The notes beneath the pieces were generated by a model. That model worked only from the letters and a program-made list of their open reading frames with translations. It did no database searches and was not told the origin of the DNA. A DNA stretch of 45,468 bases from a virus. The position numbers and the translations under genes are program-made. The stretch spans positions 1 through 45,468 of IMG/VR virus record IMGVR_UViG_3300033153_004406; one strand, written 5' to 3'. Shown here piece after piece: positions 13,427 to 44,385 of this stretch (positions are counted from its first letter, which is position 1; every line of letters begins with the position of its first letter).

Positions 13427-16400
13427 CTATATTTCTATCATATAAACGCCTAGATCGGCTACTATTATTTTCGCATACGCCTCTGGGGACCATGAAGGAC
13501 TAACTGAAGCACTCTCTGAGGCCGAGGCGCTTGAGGATGGGGAAATCGAAGCACTGGGTGACAACGATGTACTAGCTGAACTACTTGGAGAAATAGAAGC
13601 GCTTGGCGAGATGCTAGCACTACTTGAAACAGATGGAGACACCGACGCCGATGGTGAAATAGAAGCACTCTCGCTAACGCTAGGCGATAGAGAGGTTGAC
13701 TCAGATACAGAGGGGCTAATACTAGCACTAGGAGAAATTGATGCAGAAGCACTGCTCGACGGTGAGACCGAGGCCGATTCTGAAACGCTAGGACTTATAG
13801 AGGCGGATGGAGATACACTAGCTGATTCTGAAACACTAGGGGAGATAGAGGCACTTTCAGAGCTTGAGGGGCTCAACGAAGCAGAGGGACTCACACTGGC
13901 ACTATCTGAAACAGAGGGACTTATCGAAGCGCTGGGCGATATAGAGGCACTTTCACTAGAGGAAGGAGAGATACTAGCACTCTCAGAAATAGAGGGGGAA
14001 ATAGAGGCTGAAGGCGAAACACTAGCACTAGCTGAACTGGAAGGACTTATTGAAACGCTGGGACTAACACTAGCGCTCTCGGACACAGAAGGCGATAAAG
14101 ATGCACTAGCTGAGCCCGAGGGAGAAATACTAGCAGACTCACTGACTGATGGGCTAACACTAGCTGATGGTGATATAGAAACCGACTCACTGGCACTAGG
14201 AGAAACAGAGGCTGATGGGCTTAAACTAGCGCTCTCTGATACTGAAGGGCTGATAGATGCCGATGGAGATATTGAAGCCGATTCACTACTACTGGGGCTG
14301 AGTGAGGCACTTGCAGAAACACTGGGACTCAAAGAAGCACTGGGCGAAATAGACGCCGATTCTGAAATAGATGGACTCAAACTGGCACTGGGACTTATAG
14401 AAGCTGATTCAGATACCGATGGAGATATTGAAGAACTAGGACTAACTGAAGCAGATTCTGAAGCACTTGGTGAAAGAGACGCACTACTACTTACAGACGG
14501 AGATATTGAAGCACTAGGAGACACAGAAGAGCTTTCAGATACAGAGGGACTTATACTTGCACTAGGCGATATAGAAGCACTCTCGCTAACTGAGGGGCTT
14601 AAGCTAGCGGATGGGCTTAACGAGGCTGATTCTGATGAACTCGGTGATATCGAAGCGCTACTAGAAACAGACGGACTTAAAGAAGCACTAGGACTTACTG
14701 AGGCAGACTCACTAACACTAGGAGATAACGAAGCCGATTCAGATATACTAGGACTTATGCTGGAGCTGGGTGAAATACTGGCTGACTCCGAAGAACTTGG
14801 AGACACACTAGCTGATTCAGACACACTGGGACTAAGAGAAGCCGAGGGCGATATCGACGGACTAGGGCTTATCGATTCAGAACCAGCCGAAAGAGAAGCT
14901 GAAGGACTAATCGAAGCACTCTCTGATATAGACGCACTAGGACTAATCGAAGCACTTTCTGATACTGATGGTGATGTGGATGCCGAGGGGCTGATAGAAG
15001 AACTAGGCGAGATGCTAGCTGACTCCGAAGATGATGGTGACAGAGAAGTATACCAAATAGTTTGGATCTCTACTTTACTAACAGTAGCACCAGTAGTGGG
15101 GGCTGTAAGAGTGGCCAGAATGGTACCTTCGTAATCACCATCCTCGTAAATATACCCGTACACATGGTCGTCAAAGAAGGGGGCACCACCCGCTATCCAG
15201 AACAGCATTAATTCTAACCCCTGTACAACAGGCCAATCCCAACCTCCCGCAGGAGCATTTACTGTGAAATAACTACTCCACTGATCGCCGTCATGAATCC
15301 TAGCTTTTACTACATCAATAGGATCGCCGGATCCCGGAGCATTGGTACCATCAACCCTCAATTGATTAGAAGACCCCTCTCCCAAACAAGTAACAGTGGC
15401 TGTGGCGTCTGTATCTACAGTTCCATCATCTACATTAGTTTCATTGTTCCAAGTATTGTCTGAGTCTGTGGGCCCACCATCAGAAGAATCAAAGTAATAA
15501 ACACCGCTCTCAGGGCTATCGGAAGAAGAGGGGCTTATAGATGCTGAGGGTGATAGAGAGGCAGACTCCGAAACAGAGGGACTCGTTGAAGCACTTGGCG
15601 ATATAGAGGCGCTTTCAGATATTGAAGCACTCGGTGACAGAGAAGCACTCTCTGATACGGATGGGCTTATAGACGCTGAGGGGCTTAGAGAGGCGCTCTC
15701 AGAAACTGATGGTGATATAGAAGCACTCGGTGAAACAGAAGCGCTTTCACTCACTGATGGAGAAATAGACGCTGATTCGCTAACACTGGGAGAAAGAGAC
15801 GCTGAAGGACTCAAACTGGCACTCTCGCTTACTGAGGGTGAGATAGACGCACTATCGCTCACAGAAGGAGACAGAGAGGCAGAAGGACTTAAACTAGAAC
15901 TATCACTCACTGACGGACTAATAGAAGCTGACGGACTAATAGAAGAGGACTCACTAACACTTGGTGAAAGGGAAGCGCTGGGCGATATAGAGGCACTTTC
16001 ACTCACAGACGGGCTTAAGCTGGATGAGGGTGAAATAGAGGCGCTTTCTGAAATACTTGGGCTGATACTAGCTGATTCACTTACACTAGGAGAGAGAGAT
16101 GCACTCGGTGATATAGAAGCAGACTCACTAACTGAAGGTGATAAAGAGGCTGATTCACTAACCGAGGGACTTATACTAGACGAAGGAGATATTGATGCTG
16201 ATTCACTAACAGACGGCGATAAACTAGCACTTTCTGACACAGAGGGACTCAAGCTAGCAGACGGTGATATTGAGGCCGACTCTGACACTGATGGAGAAAT
16301 ACTCGCACTAGGACTTATAGAAGCACTTTCTGAGACTGACGGGCTTGTTGAAGCACTTTCACTAACCGAGGGTGAAAGAGAAGCAGATGGAGAAATACTG

Positions 16401-19400
16401 GCCGACTCACTAACGCTAGGAGAAATGCTAGCACTCTCGGACACCGATGGTGAAATACTAGCTGATGGCGATATTGACGCACTTTCAGATACTGAGGGGC
16501 TGATAGAAGCACTCTCACTCACGGAGGGTGAAAGAGAAGCAGATGGTGAGATCGATGCGGACTCAGAGACCGAAGGGCTGATGGAAGCAGAAGGACTTAT
16601 ACTTGCGCTTTCCGACACTGATGGAGAAATACTTGTACTCTCACTGACTGATGGACTAATGCTAGCTGATGGTGAGATAGATGCGCTTTCAGAAACACTA
16701 GGACTGATAGACGCACTTTCGCTGACTGATGGCGAAATAGAAGCTGATGGTGATATAGACGCCGATTCTGATACTGATGGACTAAGGCTAGCGCTCTCGG
16801 ATACTGAAGGACTGATAGAAGCACTTGGACTAATGGATGCTGATTCGCTTACACTTGGCGATATTGAGGCGCTAGGAGAGATAGAAGCACTTTCGCTGAC
16901 TGATGGTGAAAGAGAGGCTGAGTCACTAACAGAAGGACTCAAACTGGTCGAGGGGGAGATAGAAGCACTCTCACTCACTGATGGTGAGATTGATGCCGAC
17001 TCACTTACCGAAGGGCTCAAACTAGACGAGGGTGAGATTGATGCACTCTCCGATACTGAAGGAGAGATGCTGACAGACTCAGACACACTTGGTGATAACG
17101 ACGAACTAGGGCTTATTGAGGCACTATCACTAACACTGGGTGAAACAGATGCTGAGGGGCTCAGAGAGGCGCTCTCAGACACAGAGGGGCTTATACTGGA
17201 GCTGGGGCTGAGTGACGAACTTTCGCTCACAGAGGGGCTTATAGAGGCACTGGCCGAAACAAAGTCAGACTCAGACGAAGAAGGAGAAATGGAGGCGCTT
17301 GGTGAAATACTAGCTGACTCTGAAACTGAGGGTGAAAGAGAGGCAGAGGGGCTTATGCTAGCGCTCTCAGATACCGAGGGGCTTAAAGAAGCGCTTGGGG
17401 AAATAGAGGCTGATTCTGAGATAGATGGCGATAAAGATGCCGAAGAACTTACTGACGGACTCAGACTAGCCGACGGTGAGATTGAAGCTGATTCACTAGA
17501 GCTAGGACTTATAGAAGCACTATCACTGATCGAGGGAGATATAGAAGCACTGGGTGAAATACTAGCACTCTCTGAGGAAGATGGAGATATGCTGGCGCTT
17601 TCTGATACCGAGGGCGAAACTGATGCGCTGGGGCTGAGAGAAGCAGACTCCGACACGCTAGGAGAAGTAGATGCACTAGGCGAGATGCTAGCGCTCTCAC
17701 TGACTGACGGGGATATACTAGCGCTGGGGGAAATAGAGGCACTCTCAGATACTGAAGGACTTAACGAAGAGCTGGGTGAAATTGACGCTGACTCACTGCT
17801 TGAAGGGGATATAGAGGCCGATTCACTAATAGACGGAGATATTGAGGCTGACGGTGAGATGCTGGCTGATTCACTCACAGAAGGAGAAATAGAAGCACTT
17901 GGGCTCAAACTAGCTGATTCTGAAACACTAGGGCTGGTTGATGCCGAGGGACTAATAGACGCCGATTCTGAAACAGATGGCGATATTGAGGCAGACTCCG
18001 AAACTGACGGGCTGATAGAAGCACTAGGACTTATTGAGGCGCTTTCAGATACCGAGGGGCTGATTGATGCACTAGGCGAGATAGAAGCTGATTCACTAGA
18101 ACTGGGTGAGAGACTGGCAGAAGCACTCGAAGAGGGTGAAGTGCTAGCTGAGGGCGAGATTGAAGCAGATTCTGATACAGACGGACTAATACTAGCCGAA
18201 GGACTTATAGATGCTGATTCGCTAACTGATGGGCTAATAGATGCTGAAGGAGATATAGAGGCGCTTTCGCTAACCGAGGGGCTTGTGCTGGATGACGGTG
18301 ATATTGAAGCACTAGCTGACGAGCTGGGTGAGGTTGAAGCAGATTCTGAAACGCTAGGTGATGTAGAAGCTGACGGTGAAATACTAGCGGAAGCCGAAGA
18401 ACTAGGAGAGGTGGAAGCGCTTTCGCTAACAGAGGGCGACAAAGAAGCACTGGCACTGGAACTTGGAGATGTTGATGACGAGGGACTTATACTGGCAGAC
18501 TCTGACAAAGAGGGAGATGTAGAAGCTGATTCACTGACTGAAGGGCTAATACTAGCACTTGCAGAACTAGATGGAGAAACACTAGCACTAGGAGAAACCG
18601 AGGGGCTAGGAGATATAGAAGCAGAGGGAGCATCAGCACTTAAAGTAAAAGACCTAGTAGTAGCCCAATCACTCCAAGTATCACTACCACCGGGATCTTT
18701 AGCCCTTACTCTCCAATAGTAATCATCAGCACTAAGAGCATCACCTGCTTGGACTGTATAATCAGCCTTATCCTCGTCATCAAACGGATGAGTATCACCA
18801 CCATCGGTAGTGTTGGTAAATGTAGCATCCTCGTCTTCTGAGTTTTTGTTGAGAAGAGGATGATCACCCAAAAGGTAAAAACATGCATCGGCAGTATTAT
18901 CTGGCACATAAAAATGTCCAATACTGAAAATAAGTTTGCACATATTACCGCTGTGGGTGGGAGAAGAACCATCATACCCAGCAAGCACATAATTAGAGAC
19001 ATCCCCATCCATGTACTCGAAAGCCACTATATAATCAGTGTTGCCATCCGTTGTATAAGGGGTATCAAAGGTAAGTTCTATGAGCTGGTAGGAAGTAGTT
19101 AAGGCACTTACATCGTATGTAACCGAAGCCAGAGCGTTTGTACCCTCCGAATAAGCAGAATAAGAGCTATCACCATACACACCACCGTGGGGATAGATGT
19201 AGGCCATACCATTACCCGTGGGTAGACCACTTTTCTTTAAATAAAATTTACACCCCGTAACATCACCACCCGTACCATGAAACGACTGGCAAATACCAGC
19301 CCCTTCGACAGAGGCACCCCACATAGTTACATCAGAATCCTGGTTACTCTCGGAGTAACTGTCCATAGTACCAGTTTGGTCATGAAAAGTACTAGCAGTG

Positions 19401-20173
19401 TCTACCTGGATCTGGTACTCGACCTCCTGGTCTTCTGGGTCATCACCAGTAAACTCAAAAGTAGGCGTTGTGTCTGAGATAGTAGCTAAATCGTTAGGAT
19501 AGTTTAATACTGTTGTTGGTGTACGATCAGCCCGAATCTCTAAAGCAGATAACACCCAGAGAGTATCCGCATCAGTATCGGTGTAGTTCATTGTCTGGGC
19601 AGTAGTGTCTACAGCGTCTACGTACTGAGAAGCATGAGTATCACTACCAACATCAGTCTTGTGTATCTTTTCGTGGGCCTCAACAATCTTAGATCCATCT
19701 GATTCACCAGATACCAGAGAATCAACTATATAGGAGTCATTGTAAGAGGGGGTTATTGAAAGGGTAGGAGCGGTATTGTTACCCTCAGCTGATTGGATAG
19801 CACCTGTAGGAGAAGCAGCATAAACCCCACTCATAACAGCTCCACCAGCCGATACATCGGTACACTTACCGCCCATTGTTACTGTAACTGCCTTACCAGA
19901 AGCAACCGTTGGATTAGCTAAATACCATATTTCAACACGAAAGTCCTCACCATCATCATGAGTACACCCGTCTACACGGGTAAAGGTCTCATTCTCTCCA
20001 GCAGCATCCCAAACAACACCATTATTAGCAACAGTCCTGTCAGATACAGAAGAATCAGTGGCCTGTACCGTACATACAAGGAGGTTGTCAGCAGCTCCTA
20101 CTGTTACGTTGAGAACATCTACACTAGAAGCAGAAGCCGTCCTCCCCCTAACTGAATTTACACTAATCGCCAT
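13427..20173 (-). CDS. Giant serine-rich repeat virion protein, mucin-like (2248 aa)
   Basis: Residues 1-510 are folded, beta-rich sequence. About 225-505 holds a fibronectin-like domain ([20 protein letters not shown] at one end, [19 protein letters not shown] at the other) interrupted by another beta domain. Residues about 511-1552 are SPSxSxSPSxSES-type repeats. About 1553-1709 is a second folded island ([20 protein letters not shown] onward). Repeats resume to about 2225, and a short hydrophobic tail ends the chain. No protease or sortase motif and no signal peptide is seen, so it is a virion protein rather than a secreted one. It is probably a long, flexible tail or capsid appendage. It adjoins the glycan island, so O-glycosylation of its serines is an attractive inference. 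The start ATG at 20173 has only a weak AAAG upstream. Confidence 0.85.
13494..15046 (-). repeat. C-terminal SPSxS repeat block of the giant protein
   Basis: About 515 codons of units built on SESASxSPSASxSPSV with Ile, Leu, Val or Thr in the x position. The basic period is 10 codons (30 bases), often doubled to 16. Serine and proline codons vary from unit to unit, so the DNA repeat is much less exact than the protein repeat. The opposite strand is free of stops over long stretches as a by-product. Confidence 0.9.
15516..18641 (-). repeat. Central SPSxS repeat block of the giant protein
   Basis: About 1040 codons of the same Ser/Pro/Ala/Glu repeat, the longest repeat tract in the window. A folded, non-repetitive island at about 15047-15515 separates it from the other block. 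Occasional units break the pattern (for example a DFVSAS unit near the middle), giving landmarks for alignment. Confidence 0.9.
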
Positions 20174-35386: not shown

Positions 35387-35392
35387 GGGCGC

Positions 35393-35421
35393 ATATTCTC
35401 ATTTAATATACTATTTGTCAA
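35393..35421 (-). promoter_or_regulatory. Promoter with leaderless geometry before the co-chaperonin
   Basis: TTGACA (35416-35421), 17-nt spacer, GAATAT (35393-35398), then GCGCCC and the ATG at 35386. It lacks the CGAAA downstream of the -35 found in the TTGACACGAAA class. A second TTGACA lies 17 bases upstream of the first, within the palindrome at 35432-35444. It restarts transcription after the capsid terminator and so probably drives the glycan island. Confidence 0.68.
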
Positions 35422-35431
35422 TCAAACATCC

Positions 35432-35444
35432 TGTTTGTCAAACA
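35432..35444. promoter_or_regulatory. Palindrome upstream of the co-chaperonin promoter, operator candidate
   Basis: TGTTTGACAAACA is a perfect 13-base palindrome on an odd centre, 10 bases upstream of the -35 box. A related half-site (GTTTGA) recurs between it and the -35 box. It could bind a phage or host regulator, or merely extend the terminator region. Confidence 0.4.
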
Positions 35445-35467
35445 AAAAGCCACCCCGAAGGATGGCT
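35443..35467 (-). terminator. Intrinsic terminator after the major capsid gene
   Basis: On the minus strand: AGCCATCC, a TTCG tetraloop, GGGTGGCT and then TTTTTG. The stem has eight pairs with one G-U wobble (35448-35467), and the T-run follows at once. It ends the packaging and head transcript and separates it from the co-chaperonin and glycan genes. Confidence 0.93.
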
Positions 35468-35487
35468 GATTGTTGTTTCCACGGACA

Positions 35488-36459
35488 TCACGCAGTTGAA
35501 GAAACTGTGTGTTGATAGTTCACGTAGAAGTCGCTGTTCAAAGAAGCAGCACCAAAGGTTGTTTTCCAACCAGCGGTAGCAATCTTCTCTGTGGGGTCTC
35601 CAGTTCCACCTGAGCTGTAGTCCTTAATGTAGGTCTTCAGTCCCTGTAGTTCTGTGACACCGAATGCGTCGCTTCCCATTACGGAAGTAACGTAAACTGA
35701 GCTGGAAGCAGTCACACCTGAACCAACAACAAATGCGTTGGAAGTCTCAAGGAACCTTGTTCCCATGAGTTTACCAATTTCACCTGTCATTAGTTTATTT
35801 GCGTTAGGAGATGTGTACTTGTTAGCGTCAATCCATCCACCAGTCGTAGTATCACCTTGAAGGTCATATACGGCGTCGGGGTGAATAACAGCTATCCAAG
35901 AACCACCTACCTTCTGTGCGTCGTTTCTGCTTAGGAGCCTACTCGATTTCCGTACTGCGGTTATCCCGAAAGTAGCGGTAGCCGGTGTAGACGTGAAAGC
36001 AGCACGAGTTACTGCACCAATGTGGGTTCCAGACTTGGAGATCGTATTACGAATCACCGTGTCGATTGAAAGTCCTGCGTTGTAAGCAAGTCTTTCAACA
36101 GCTGCCTTCATAACATCACCAAATGAGGTGTATGCTAATAGGTCAGAGATTGAGACGGCGTTGTCGTACTGTGCGGTTGCACCTGTTACGTTAGTAGCTG
36201 TCATGGAAACAGCGGTTGTGGGATAACCCTCACCCTGTCCAGCAGTTATTAAGTCTAAGTTGGTCCACTTTGTCCAGTATACGGTTGCTACAGACCCGGA
36301 GTAACCACCAGATCCTTGGGGGATCTTACGGTTAAGCTGTCCGAGCTGTTTGTGTACTAGGTTGGCCTCAGCAATTCTTAAGAATAATTCGTCATAATAA
36401 CGATTCTTTATAGCTTCCGAGACTGTACTAGTTAGCGATTTAGCGGTATCTAATGCCAT
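35488..36459 (-). CDS. Major capsid protein, N4-gp56-like (323 aa)
   Basis: The helical start (SLTSTVSEAIKNRYYDELFLRIAE, cited in part), an early SGGYSGSVATVYWTKWTNLD block with aromatic residues, and the length agree with the N4-gp56 major capsid family (HK97 fold). Later text holds the expected A-domain and P-domain features (VIHPDAVYDLQGD and GEIGKLMGTRFLETSNA). It follows a scaffold-like gene and is closed by a strong terminator, as is usual for the most highly expressed head gene. AGAGAGGTGA precedes the ATG by 10 bases. Confidence 0.85.
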   Translation of the reverse strand: MALDTAKSLTSTVSEAIKNRYYDELFLRIAEANLVHKQLGQLNRKIPQGSGGYSGSVATVYWTKWTNLDLITAGQGEGYPTTAVSMTATNVTGATAQYDNAVSISDLLAYTSFGDVMKAAVERLAYNAGLSIDTVIRNTISKSGTHIGAVTRAAFTSTPATATFGITAVRKSSRLLSRNDAQKVGGSWIAVIHPDAVYDLQGDTTTGGWIDANKYTSPNANKLMTGEIGKLMGTRFLETSNAFVVGSGVTASSSVYVTSVMGSDAFGVTELQGLKTYIKDYSSGGTGDPTEKIATAGWKTTFGAASLNSDFYVNYQHTVSSTA

Positions 36460-36488: not shown

Positions 36489-37208
36489 CTAGCCGAAGTA
36501 GCCGGTCTCTCTGAGATAGCTTTCCATCTCTTTGAAAGACATTTTGCCAGGATCCGGTTCACCTGATCCCTTGCTTCTATTACGTCCTGAGAGTGGTGTT
36601 TCAGAGGCGGATAGTTTAACCTTCTTAGCTTTAGTACGAACCTCAACTTCCTTACGAGTCAGCTTCTCAAACGTCTTTAACGACTTCTGAGCGGCTTGCA
36701 TAGGGGTTATCTTGGGGTCAGCCTGCAAATAACTGAATGCTAACTCATCAAGCTCCCTACTATACTCGGAATTGGTCGGTTCACCTTCAGCGTCAGGTTT
36801 AGGATCAAACTGCGGGTATGCAAGCTTGACCTCTAACACATCAGCCTTGTCCCAGTTCCTCTCTGGGGTAGGAGCGGATTCTTTGTTTTCGGGGTACTCG
36901 ATGCTTGATAAATCAGCCTCTTTCTCCGTGGCTTTCCTCTCCGCTGCCTTCATCTTGCCATAGACTTTATTGAACCTTTCTATGGGGATGTATTTCTTGC
37001 CAGACTCGTCCTCGACCTCATCGGCTTCCTCTTTAACCTCCTCGGTAGGAGATTCTTCGGCTGCCTCTTCGACCGGGGCTTCCTCTTCGTTTGGTTCAGG
37101 GGGTGTTGAATCCTCCTCGGAAGTCTCTGTTTCTTCCTTAACTTCGCCTGCGGAGTCAGTTACTTCGTGATCTCCTAAGGCGGCAACAAGTTCATCTATG
37201 CGTGACAT
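36489..37208 (-). CDS. Scaffolding protein (239 aa)
   Basis: The first 75 residues are an acidic, disordered run rich in Glu and Pro (EEDSTPPEPNEEEAPVEEA). The rest is helical and ends in a short basic and aromatic C-terminus (KMSFKEMESYLRETGYFG), the part that binds capsid protein in known scaffolds. Position between portal and capsid genes is the classic scaffold place. A perfect AAAGGAGG precedes the ATG. No protease motif is seen, so the scaffold is probably released rather than self-cleaved. Confidence 0.8.
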   Translation of the reverse strand: MSRIDELVAALGDHEVTDSAGEVKEETETSEEDSTPPEPNEEEAPVEEAAEESPTEEVKEEADEVEDESGKKYIPIERFNKVYGKMKAAERKATEKEADLSSIEYPENKESAPTPERNWDKADVLEVKLAYPQFDPKPDAEGEPTNSEYSRELDELAFSYLQADPKITPMQAAQKSLKTFEKLTRKEVEVRTKAKKVKLSASETPLSGRNRSKGSGEPDPGKMSFKEMESYLRETGYFG

Positions 37209-37382
37209 AGTGAGCCTCCTTTATTAGCATGGTTTTTACCTGTCCATGTCAGGACCGTTTTATAAGCATGGTTACGCCACGAGCGAGGGATTAGCAGCCC
37301 TAGTAAGGTGTTGGGAGCGAAGCATGTGTTTAGTAAACAAGTAAACAAGTAAACAAATAAACACAAACTAACCAACACCTAA
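37209..37382 (-). repeat. Non-coding stretch with 8-bp direct repeats inside an inverted repeat
   Basis: Between the 81-aa zinc protein and the scaffold gene lie 174 bases with no supported gene. Three exact copies of GTAAACAA (37333-37356) plus a degenerate fourth form a tandem array. It is flanked by a perfect 9-bp inverted repeat (AGGTGTTGG at 37306-37314 and CCAACACCT at 37372-37380), so the array sits in the loop of a stem on the transcript. A 15-bp near-perfect direct repeat (37220-37234 and 37259-37273) lies between this and the scaffold ribosome-binding site. A regulator-binding or mRNA-processing site is possible; an origin is less likely within late genes. Confidence 0.5.
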
Positions 37383-37628
37383 CTACGACCGCAAATCAAT
37401 CAACCTACCCTTGTGTACTCTCATGTACCCAGGTACGAACGTACCCCTGTGACACTTAGTACACTGAACCCCACCTTCTTCCAACGTCTCTAAGGTCCTA
37501 CACTTCTTCAAGTTACCTTTAGCACTACACTCACACTCTTGCCACTTAACTGGCTTAGACACACCAATCTCGGCGTCCTCACCCCAAAACTCCTCGTCGT
37601 CACTCTTTGGCAGATCCGGCAGACTCAT
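37383..37628 (-). CDS. Small zinc-binding protein (81 aa)
   Basis: The protein has an acidic N-terminus followed by four or five cysteines: ECECSAKGNLKKC, then VQCTKCHRGTF. This suggests a single zinc site in the ribbon style. It lies between the portal and scaffold genes and overlaps its upstream neighbour by 29 bases. I know no function; a small head-assembly or regulatory factor is possible. Confidence 0.6.
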   Translation of the reverse strand: MSLPDLPKSDDEEFWGEDAEIGVSKPVKWQECECSAKGNLKKCRTLETLEEGGVQCTKCHRGTFVPGYMRVHKGRLIDLRS

Positions 37629-43266: not shown

Positions 43267-43405
43267 TCTTAACCTTTCTTGGTCTATCCCAATAGGGTGT
43301 CTTACACTTAGGGTTAGGACACACCTTAGGTACCTTTACACGTGGGTTCCATGTATGACCACACCTCTCACACTTTAATTCTGGTAGTATTATTTCAATT
43401 TCCAT
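43250..43405 (-). CDS. Zinc-ribbon peptide (51 aa)
   Basis: A 51-aa protein with CERCGHTWNPRVK and VCPNPKC, i.e. Cys-x2-Cys and Cys-x4-Cys ligands of a zinc ribbon, as in the small proteins next to phage replication genes. The start overlaps the end of the ssDNA-binding gene by 11 bases and its stop overlaps the next gene by 17, giving good support despite a weak ribosome-binding site. Function unknown; DNA or RNA binding is plausible. Confidence 0.7.
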   Translation of the reverse strand: MEIEIILPELKCERCGHTWNPRVKVPKVCPNPKCKTPYWDRPRKVKNEQPS

Positions 43406-43937
43406 CGAACGGGTTCTTTCCATCAAATAAAGCCTCTAAGTTAATATCCGAGTCCTTAAAGAACTTATCTATGCCCGGATCTAGGTCTCTAGACCCTGGA
43501 ATAAGGGAGTACCTAGTCTCTAACCCCTCACCCTCACGGGTAATCTCTATATCGTATTCCCTGGGATCTCCCCAAGCCTCGCTCCTCTGTAGAGCCATAA
43601 TAGACTTCTGGATACCACGTTGGGTTATCTCAAGTATCTGGAGTAACTCATCCTCGAAGTTCCAAACAACAGCCGCCCAGAAATGCTTAACACCATCCTC
43701 TGGTACATCAGCCATTGGTATATCTTCATCCATCCTAAAACGTACTGGACGCCTACCATCCTCGGTATCCTTCCACATCTCGTACCCAAGGATAGGCACA
43801 CCCATAAACCTAATCTTGTTAACACCAAGCTTAAACTTCATATAGCCGTTATCTTTGCTAGGAACTTTATAATTCTCTGGTAAAAACCCTAACGATTCGT
43901 CTATGTCTTCTTTTTCTTTTTCTGTTAATTCGCTCAT
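43395..43937 (-). CDS. Probable phage single-stranded DNA-binding protein (180 aa)
   Basis: KFKLGVNKIRFMGVPILGYEMW and the spaced aromatic and Arg residues that follow, then HFWAAVVWNFEDELLQILEITQ, GIQKSIMAL and YDIEITREGEGLETRYSL, form the beta-strand pattern of a large group of phage OB-fold ssDNA-binding proteins. The acidic C-terminus common in such proteins is present only in part (DSDINLEALFDG). A promoter and AAAGG site precede the ATG. I rely on pattern recognition, not a database search. Confidence 0.65.
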   Translation of the reverse strand: MSELTEKEKEDIDESLGFLPENYKVPSKDNGYMKFKLGVNKIRFMGVPILGYEMWKDTEDGRRPVRFRMDEDIPMADVPEDGVKHFWAAVVWNFEDELLQILEITQRGIQKSIMALQRSEAWGDPREYDIEITREGEGLETRYSLIPGSRDLDPGIDKFFKDSDINLEALFDGKNPFDGN

Positions 43938-43962
43938 AATAATACCTTTCTTTTATAATATA

Positions 43963-43992
43963 ACCATACTACACCAGTATGTGTAAAGTCAA
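43963..43992 (-). promoter_or_regulatory. Promoter before the ssDNA-binding gene
   Basis: TTGACT (43987-43992), 18-nt spacer and TATGGT (43963-43968), giving a leader of about 19 bases with AAAGG. The spacer contains TACAC and GTGTA in inverted order (5-bp arms, 6-bp gap), a possible operator. A TATATT a few bases lower is an alternative -10. Confidence 0.55.
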
Positions 43993-43994
43993 TA

Positions 43995-44097
43995 GGGTGG
44001 TAGGCTGGAAGCTGCGCTGCTGTCAGGGGTGCTACTTTGTAACCTGCCCAATCAAAAAGTAGTTAAATCTAGCAACACAGCGTTCAACCTACCACCC
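43995..44097 (-). ncRNA. Long stem-loop RNA element, possible small RNA or RNase III site
   Basis: Between the 93-aa gene and the ssDNA-binding promoter lies a near-continuous stem. Stem 1 is 10 perfect pairs (44088-44097 with 43995-44004). A 6-by-6 stretch that itself mostly pairs follows, then stem 2 of 11 pairs (44071-44081 with 44011-44021), then stem 3 of 7 pairs (44056-44062 with 44032-44038) around a 17-base loop. Stem 2 has two G-U wobbles on the minus strand; the plus strand would have A-C mismatches there. The minus-strand RNA is therefore the folded one. The loop CAGG can pair with CCUG in the internal loop. No T-run follows. Confidence 0.55.
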
Positions 44098-44103
44098 CGG
44101 CGC

Positions 44104-44385
44104 TTACTTCCCCGTATAGGTTAAGTAATTGCTATGGTAGTGACACGTAGCTTCACCAACACTCATGGAAGCGAGCTTGTCCTTGAACCACCTCTCTACT
44201 ACTCTTGTAGCCTGTTCGTGGCTCTCGAAACACATCATGCTCTGCATCCCACCATATCCGTATTCGTTCGATTTACCCAACCCCTTACAGTAATTGTGTA
44301 AAGCGTACGGATTAGTGTTAGCGCCTTTACTGGTTTCAGCAAAGTGCACGTAGTCAACTAACTTGTTCAAGTTCTTCTCTTCCAC
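44104..44385 (-). CDS. Hypothetical protein, faintly lysozyme-like (93 aa)
   Basis: ETSKGANTNPYALHNYCKGLG, cited in part, followed by EYGYGGMQSM, recalls the catalytic-Glu and Gly-Met-Gln motifs of lytic transglycosylases, but the protein is short and I would not assign a function on this alone. The first start in frame is a GTG at 44383-44385 with GGAG only 2 bases away, so the true start is uncertain. Confidence 0.5.
   Translation of the reverse strand: MEEKNLNKLVDYVHFAETSKGANTNPYALHNYCKGLGKSNEYGYGGMQSMMCFESHEQATRVVERWFKDKLASMSVGEATCHYHSNYLTYTGK

Follow-up and report, generated by a model that had tools for sequence, protein, structure and literature searches.

The locus analysed here raises the question of what a long, very stable hairpin does in the gap between two phage genes, directly ahead of the gene for a single-stranded DNA-binding protein (SSB). 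The window, by which we mean the whole 45,468-base stretch, is an IMG/VR virus record, and the genes near the hairpin all lie on its minus strand (Table 1). A preliminary description had placed a 103-nt hairpin with stems of 10, 11 and 7 pairs at 43995-44097 on the minus strand, in an intergenic gap and preceding a ssDNA-binding gene. Folding of the minus strand returned the same limits, strand and stems, the hairpin does sit between genes, and the product of the gene that follows now has a predicted gp32 fold.

Table 1. Window positions of the hairpin, its parts and the neighbouring features
Feature	Position	Strand	Description
Hairpin	43995-44097	-	103 nt
Hairpin stem 1	43995-44007/44085-44097	-	10 uninterrupted Watson-Crick pairs, extended to 13 with one U.G
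Hairpin stem 2	44011-44021/44071-44081	-	11 pairs, two G.U
Hairpin stem 3	44032-44038/44056-44062	-	7 pairs plus a weak 5-pair wobble-rich cap, three G.U
Intergenic gap holding the hairpin	43938-44103		166 nt, from the 93-aa gene to the SSB gene
Small upstream gene	44104-44385	-	93 aa, GTG start, TAA stop
Leader between hairpin and SSB ATG	43938-43994	-	57 nt, 75% A+T
SSB gene	43395-43937	-	phrog_1607/1192 single strand DNA binding protein
Second long rod hairpin	37273-37398 (approximate limits)	-	Upstream of the scaffold gene
81-aa gene	37383-37628		3' end overlapped by the second rod
Scaffold gene	36489-37208		Downstream of the second rod
Capsid gene	35488-36459		Downstream of the second rod

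Fold, strand and surroundings of the hairpin

The hairpin is genuine, very stable and well above chance expectation. Its minus-strand RNA folds as a single rod with a minimum free energy of -50.5 kcal/mol, which none of 200 dinucleotide shuffles matched (z -6.47). In a control set of 2,490 GC-matched 103-nt windows, taken from the loci of related phages, no fold reached this value and the best came to -45.9. It is also the strongest GC-corrected 110-nt fold in the whole window. Stems 1 and 2 are separated by a 3x3 internal loop and stems 2 and 3 by a large asymmetric one, and the stem arms GGGTGGTAGG and CCTACCACCC form a perfect inverted repeat. The plus strand gave a weaker fold (-43.3, z -4.42).

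We then considered the wobble pairs, which had been described for stem 2 as valid only on the minus strand and as the mark of selection on RNA. Each of the six G.U pairs of the minus fold would turn into a C.A mismatch if the plus strand were paired in the same way. The resulting 6:0 bias for the coding strand has a p of about 0.016 with three apical wobbles that were chosen by the folding program, and the outer two stems alone give 3:0 (p about 0.125). The strand argument for RNA-level selection is supportive, on few sites and short of proof: suggestive, not decisive. Selection on RNA from the transcribed strand is plausible. The same bias bears on whether the RNA fold is a by-product of a DNA-level element, such as a decayed palindrome, a cruciform or a mobile-element remnant. 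Perfect inverted arms and a plus strand that also folds well would suit such an element, but the one-sided wobbles in the shared pairing speak against it, as does the failure to see a target-site duplication at the hairpin flanks, a second copy within this genome, or any match to the exact stem-1 arm pattern in 2.9 million viral contigs. We regard this explanation as very unlikely.

The hairpin starts 6 nt past the TAA of the upstream gene, a small conserved gene with homologues in four relatives (L126, L132, L135 and L136). The stretch after the hairpin, TATTGACTTT, lacks a U-tract, with four T in the eight bases beyond the stem (TATTGACT). The leader that follows (TATTGACTTTACACATACTGGTGTAGTATGGTTATATTATAAAAGAAAGGTATTATT) contains the Shine-Dalgarno sequence AGAAAGG, a single UAAA and no UUAAA, and a portion of it is base-paired in the predicted fold. 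It also holds two weak sigma-70-like promoters, TTGACT-18-TATGGT and TACACA-17-TATATT, in a surrounding region where such sites are no more frequent than expected by chance. Inside this promoter-like region lies an inverted repeat, TACAC-N6-GTGTA (43970-43985), which to judge from its sequence is a possible operator; as RNA (UACAC-AUACUG-GUGUA) it was inspected by eye as a pseudoknot, and its loops were too short for one to be claimed.

Immediately upstream of the hairpin, where the 44104 gene ends, no promoter-like site was found. This bears on a further suggestion, that the element is an independent phage small RNA, 6S-like or an antisense regulator, expressed from its own promoter. The fold is compact and self-contained, and like 6S RNA (RF00013) it is a long rod with internal loops; yet it is about half the length of 6S RNA, no promoter of its own was seen, and it has no Rfam match at the gathering threshold. 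The 6S likeness drawn in the preliminary description is thus not upheld for this 103-nt RNA at either the gathering or the relaxed (E<=5) setting, and we give the small-RNA explanation scarcely any credence. At the relaxed setting, mir-3165 scored far under its cut-off and was taken as a chance hairpin match.

To the downstream side, the SSB was modelled with AlphaFold (mean pLDDT 89) and compared with known structures by VIA-align. The model aligned best with T4 gp32 (1GPC; Z 11.0, 149 residues, rmsd 3.7), followed by RB69 gp32 (2A1K; Z 10.9), with the next unrelated entry at 6.8. Foldseek alone matched RB69 gp32 only weakly (E 0.06), and an SSB profile searched against the sequences of solved structures returned nothing meaningful. 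Pfam gp32 matched eight of the 48 aligned family members and did not match the window protein itself. We take the product to be a gp32-type SSB with a T4 gp32-like fold.

Counterparts among related phages

We searched for the hairpin among relatives at several levels. The nearest relatives have terminases up to 72% identical and SSBs 51% identical to those of the window. A blastn search with the region and with the hairpin against known phages found no DNA-level similarity, and genome contigs yielded only two terminase relatives, which were of no help for the hairpin. Two matches to the stem-2 pattern were taken as chance, one inside repetitive coding sequence (L093) and the other with an unrelated fold (L094). 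We scanned about 55 distinct relatives over the 220 nt preceding SSB and saw no equivalent rod. The folds that were present were terminator-like or unrelated, and strong structure is missing from this stretch in most of the gp32-like SSB relatives. With the 44104 gene as bait, an exact-peptide scan found no relatives; its weak tblastn homologues showed no rod past their stop codons. In L126 the 44104 homologue lies directly before SSB, with no gap and no hairpin, so that the same gene order occurs without the hairpin, which appears dispensable in this related arrangement. In L123, which by its capsid and portal is more closely related, the contig stops within the SSB gene. Since none of the relatives searched carries a homologous hairpin, we read it, to the extent that these sequences show, as specific to this lineage rather than general to such SSB genes.

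Three relatives (L131, L137 and L163) carry terminator-like hairpins upstream of SSB, and these raise the possibility that the window's hairpin is an atypical terminator, intrinsic or factor-dependent, which closes the upstream operon ahead of an SSB promoter. Its position right past a stop codon and ahead of the promoter-like sites would fit, and the hairpins of the three relatives occupy the same place; those, however, are short stems followed by T-runs, as opposed to a three-part rod. An intrinsic terminator combines a GC-rich stem with a U-tract, and the hairpin has no T-run, its 103 nt being long for that type. A terminator scan, which considers loops of 3-8 nt only, does not call it. The same phage also has a canonical U-tract terminator, GCCATCC-TTCG-GGGTGGC-TTTTT, after its capsid gene (gap 35387-35487, minus strand), and the capsid 3' ends of relatives likewise carry canonical U-tract terminators. 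We consider a terminator here rather improbable.

Other structures were noted along the way. In another SSB-carrying phage group (L003, L004, L006, L010, L012, L014, L018, L020, L021, L023 and L026), a short hairpin lies about 300-500 nt upstream of SSB; its loop, AGGTTTGTAAYGAATC, is conserved, and its stems vary from phage to phage and are mostly complementary. Strong folds in relatives apparently cluster 3-3.7 kb upstream of the terminase, which we record as a lead only. A near-perfect palindrome, ACCCATATCGTATATCA...TGATATACGATATGGGT, occurs at L078:6310-6380, with the same fold in the same place in L080. In L048 (5070-5150), a strong hairpin takes in AGGAGGGAGCTATG, the Shine-Dalgarno sequence with the start codon of what may be the next gene.

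A covarying leader RNA before the scaffold and capsid genes

We folded the window's gaps against shuffles on each strand, one 472-nt gap being left unscored. Among the scored gaps, strong coding-strand folds were limited to the SSB hairpin, the gap upstream of the scaffold and capsid genes (37209-37382; z -3.7 on the minus strand, -1.9 on the plus) and the 337-nt left end of the contig (1-337), where the minus fold beats shuffles (z -3.3) and the plus fold does not. Elsewhere in the window, a 2,248-aa open frame (13427-20173, minus strand) consists largely of a degenerate serine-rich repeat.

Relatives have a rod at the corresponding scaffold/capsid position, for example L030:13927-14079, L087:2937-3078 and L109:5163-5293. 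Their leader RNA comprises a rod over the stop of an 81-aa gene and a small hairpin before the Shine-Dalgarno sequence. In an alignment of ten relatives (L030, L087, L099, L103, L104, L106, L109, L114, L115 and L117), RNAalifold predicted a 23-pair rod plus the small hairpin near the Shine-Dalgarno sequence. Both sides had changed in 11 of the 29 pairs and 96.5% of cells pair, a level that none of 500 shuffles reached. Across 23 divergent phages, most show the small hairpin, GUUCU-stem-UGC just ahead of AAAGGAGG, in recognisable form, its stem varying among them. By this comparison of sequences, the scaffold/capsid leader in these relatives, a group of uncultivated phages, is an evolutionarily conserved RNA structure with strong covariation. 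No Rfam family covers it, and it is a better-supported novelty than the SSB hairpin. As a separate observation on the capsid genes, the MCP gene of L117, L119, L120 and L121 is split near residue 35 by about 720 bases, in the manner of an intron or insertion.

No sequence similarity is visible between the window's two rods. Both are long, stand at a stop codon ahead of the following gene and lack a U-tract. The scaffold/capsid rod differs in that it extends over the end of the upstream coding sequence and has covarying counterparts in relatives. Model R1, a covariance model built on the capsid leader of the relatives, recovers those relatives and misses the window's own capsid rod. It gives the SSB hairpin 11.3 bits, with an E of 0.16 when the whole window is searched, a score that any long hairpin before a Shine-Dalgarno sequence might attain.

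Possible roles of the hairpin and comparison with known systems

Proteins of the gp32 type are the class behind the classic example of translational autoregulation, and in T4 the gene 32 leader combines a pseudoknot of ~28 nt with UUAAA repeats. Because the SSB here is gp32-type, the main rival to the reading we favour is an autogenous operator, in which the protein would nucleate at the structure and spread over the A/U-rich leader and ribosome-binding site. The gp32 fold of the SSB, together with the Pfam gp32 matches in its family, points this way, as does a T4-like layout in which structured RNA is followed, at similar spacing, by an A+U-rich stretch. The window has a 103-nt rod in place of the ~28-nt pseudoknot, however, a rod being the nested fold returned by tools that predict nested folds and not pseudoknots, and its leader lacks UUAAA repeats and is partly paired. 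Further points against an operator are that strong structure is absent upstream of most gp32-like SSB relatives and that the hairpin would fall outside the SSB mRNA if the promoter-like sites are used. We consider an operator unlikely, although clearly worth weighing. A broader proposal, that the rod and A/U-rich leader form an autogenous operator of a gp32-fold SSB outside T4-like phages and also belong to a wider set of rod-leaders controlling the group's most abundant proteins (SSB, capsid/scaffold), strikes us as improbable.

In T4 itself, gp32 binds the pseudoknot, which lies about 67 nt ahead of the start codon, and from there extends over the unstructured A+U-rich sequence that follows it (PMC3014915; PMC535899). 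The arrangement in the window shares a structured RNA and then an A/U-rich leader, both preceding the gene for an SSB of gp32 fold; it differs in having a rod that ends 57 nt from the start codon, with promoter-like sites between the two.

The reading we tentatively prefer, at a little short of an even chance, is that the hairpin works as structured RNA and marks the boundary of an mRNA, serving processing, stability or insulation. Transcription of the small upstream genes (45180 to 44104) would continue through the hairpin, and the long double-stranded rod would shield the 3' end of that upstream message. The rod would then be cut by an RNase III-type nuclease or would otherwise separate the two messages by insulation, so that the SSB gene would keep an A/U-rich leader to itself and probably have a promoter of its own. 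In favour of this reading are the fold and its margin over chance, the coding-strand bias, the location next to the stop codon, the missing U-tract, and the rods at the capsid-gene boundary, found in this phage and, with covariation, in its relatives. Against it stand the lack of a homologous hairpin in the relatives searched, the hairpin-free gene order of L126, the chance-level frequency of promoter-like sites and the failure of model R1 to recognise the window's own capsid rod. In the early region of four relatives (L030, L035, L047 and L052), long hairpins without a U-tract stand at or over a stop codon before genes other than SSB, which favours a general boundary role over an SSB-specific one.

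Post-transcriptional control is little mapped in uncultivated phages, and the hairpin offers a testable element adjoining a gp32-type SSB; the work also led to the covarying scaffold/capsid leader RNA. If either RNA does regulate its gene, a textbook mechanism would extend to another phage lineage.

The processing hairpins of T7, to which the preliminary description had compared the element by shape, are among its closest parallels, and RNase III-type processing may occur here. Those hairpins are long and imperfect, lie between co-oriented genes and lack a U-tract, and the window's hairpin shares each of these features. Its carrier is nevertheless not a T7-like phage, having an SU10-type portal and a Terminase_6N terminase. 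The SSB hairpin is a new, lineage-specific case of a known type, the intercistronic or leader hairpin.
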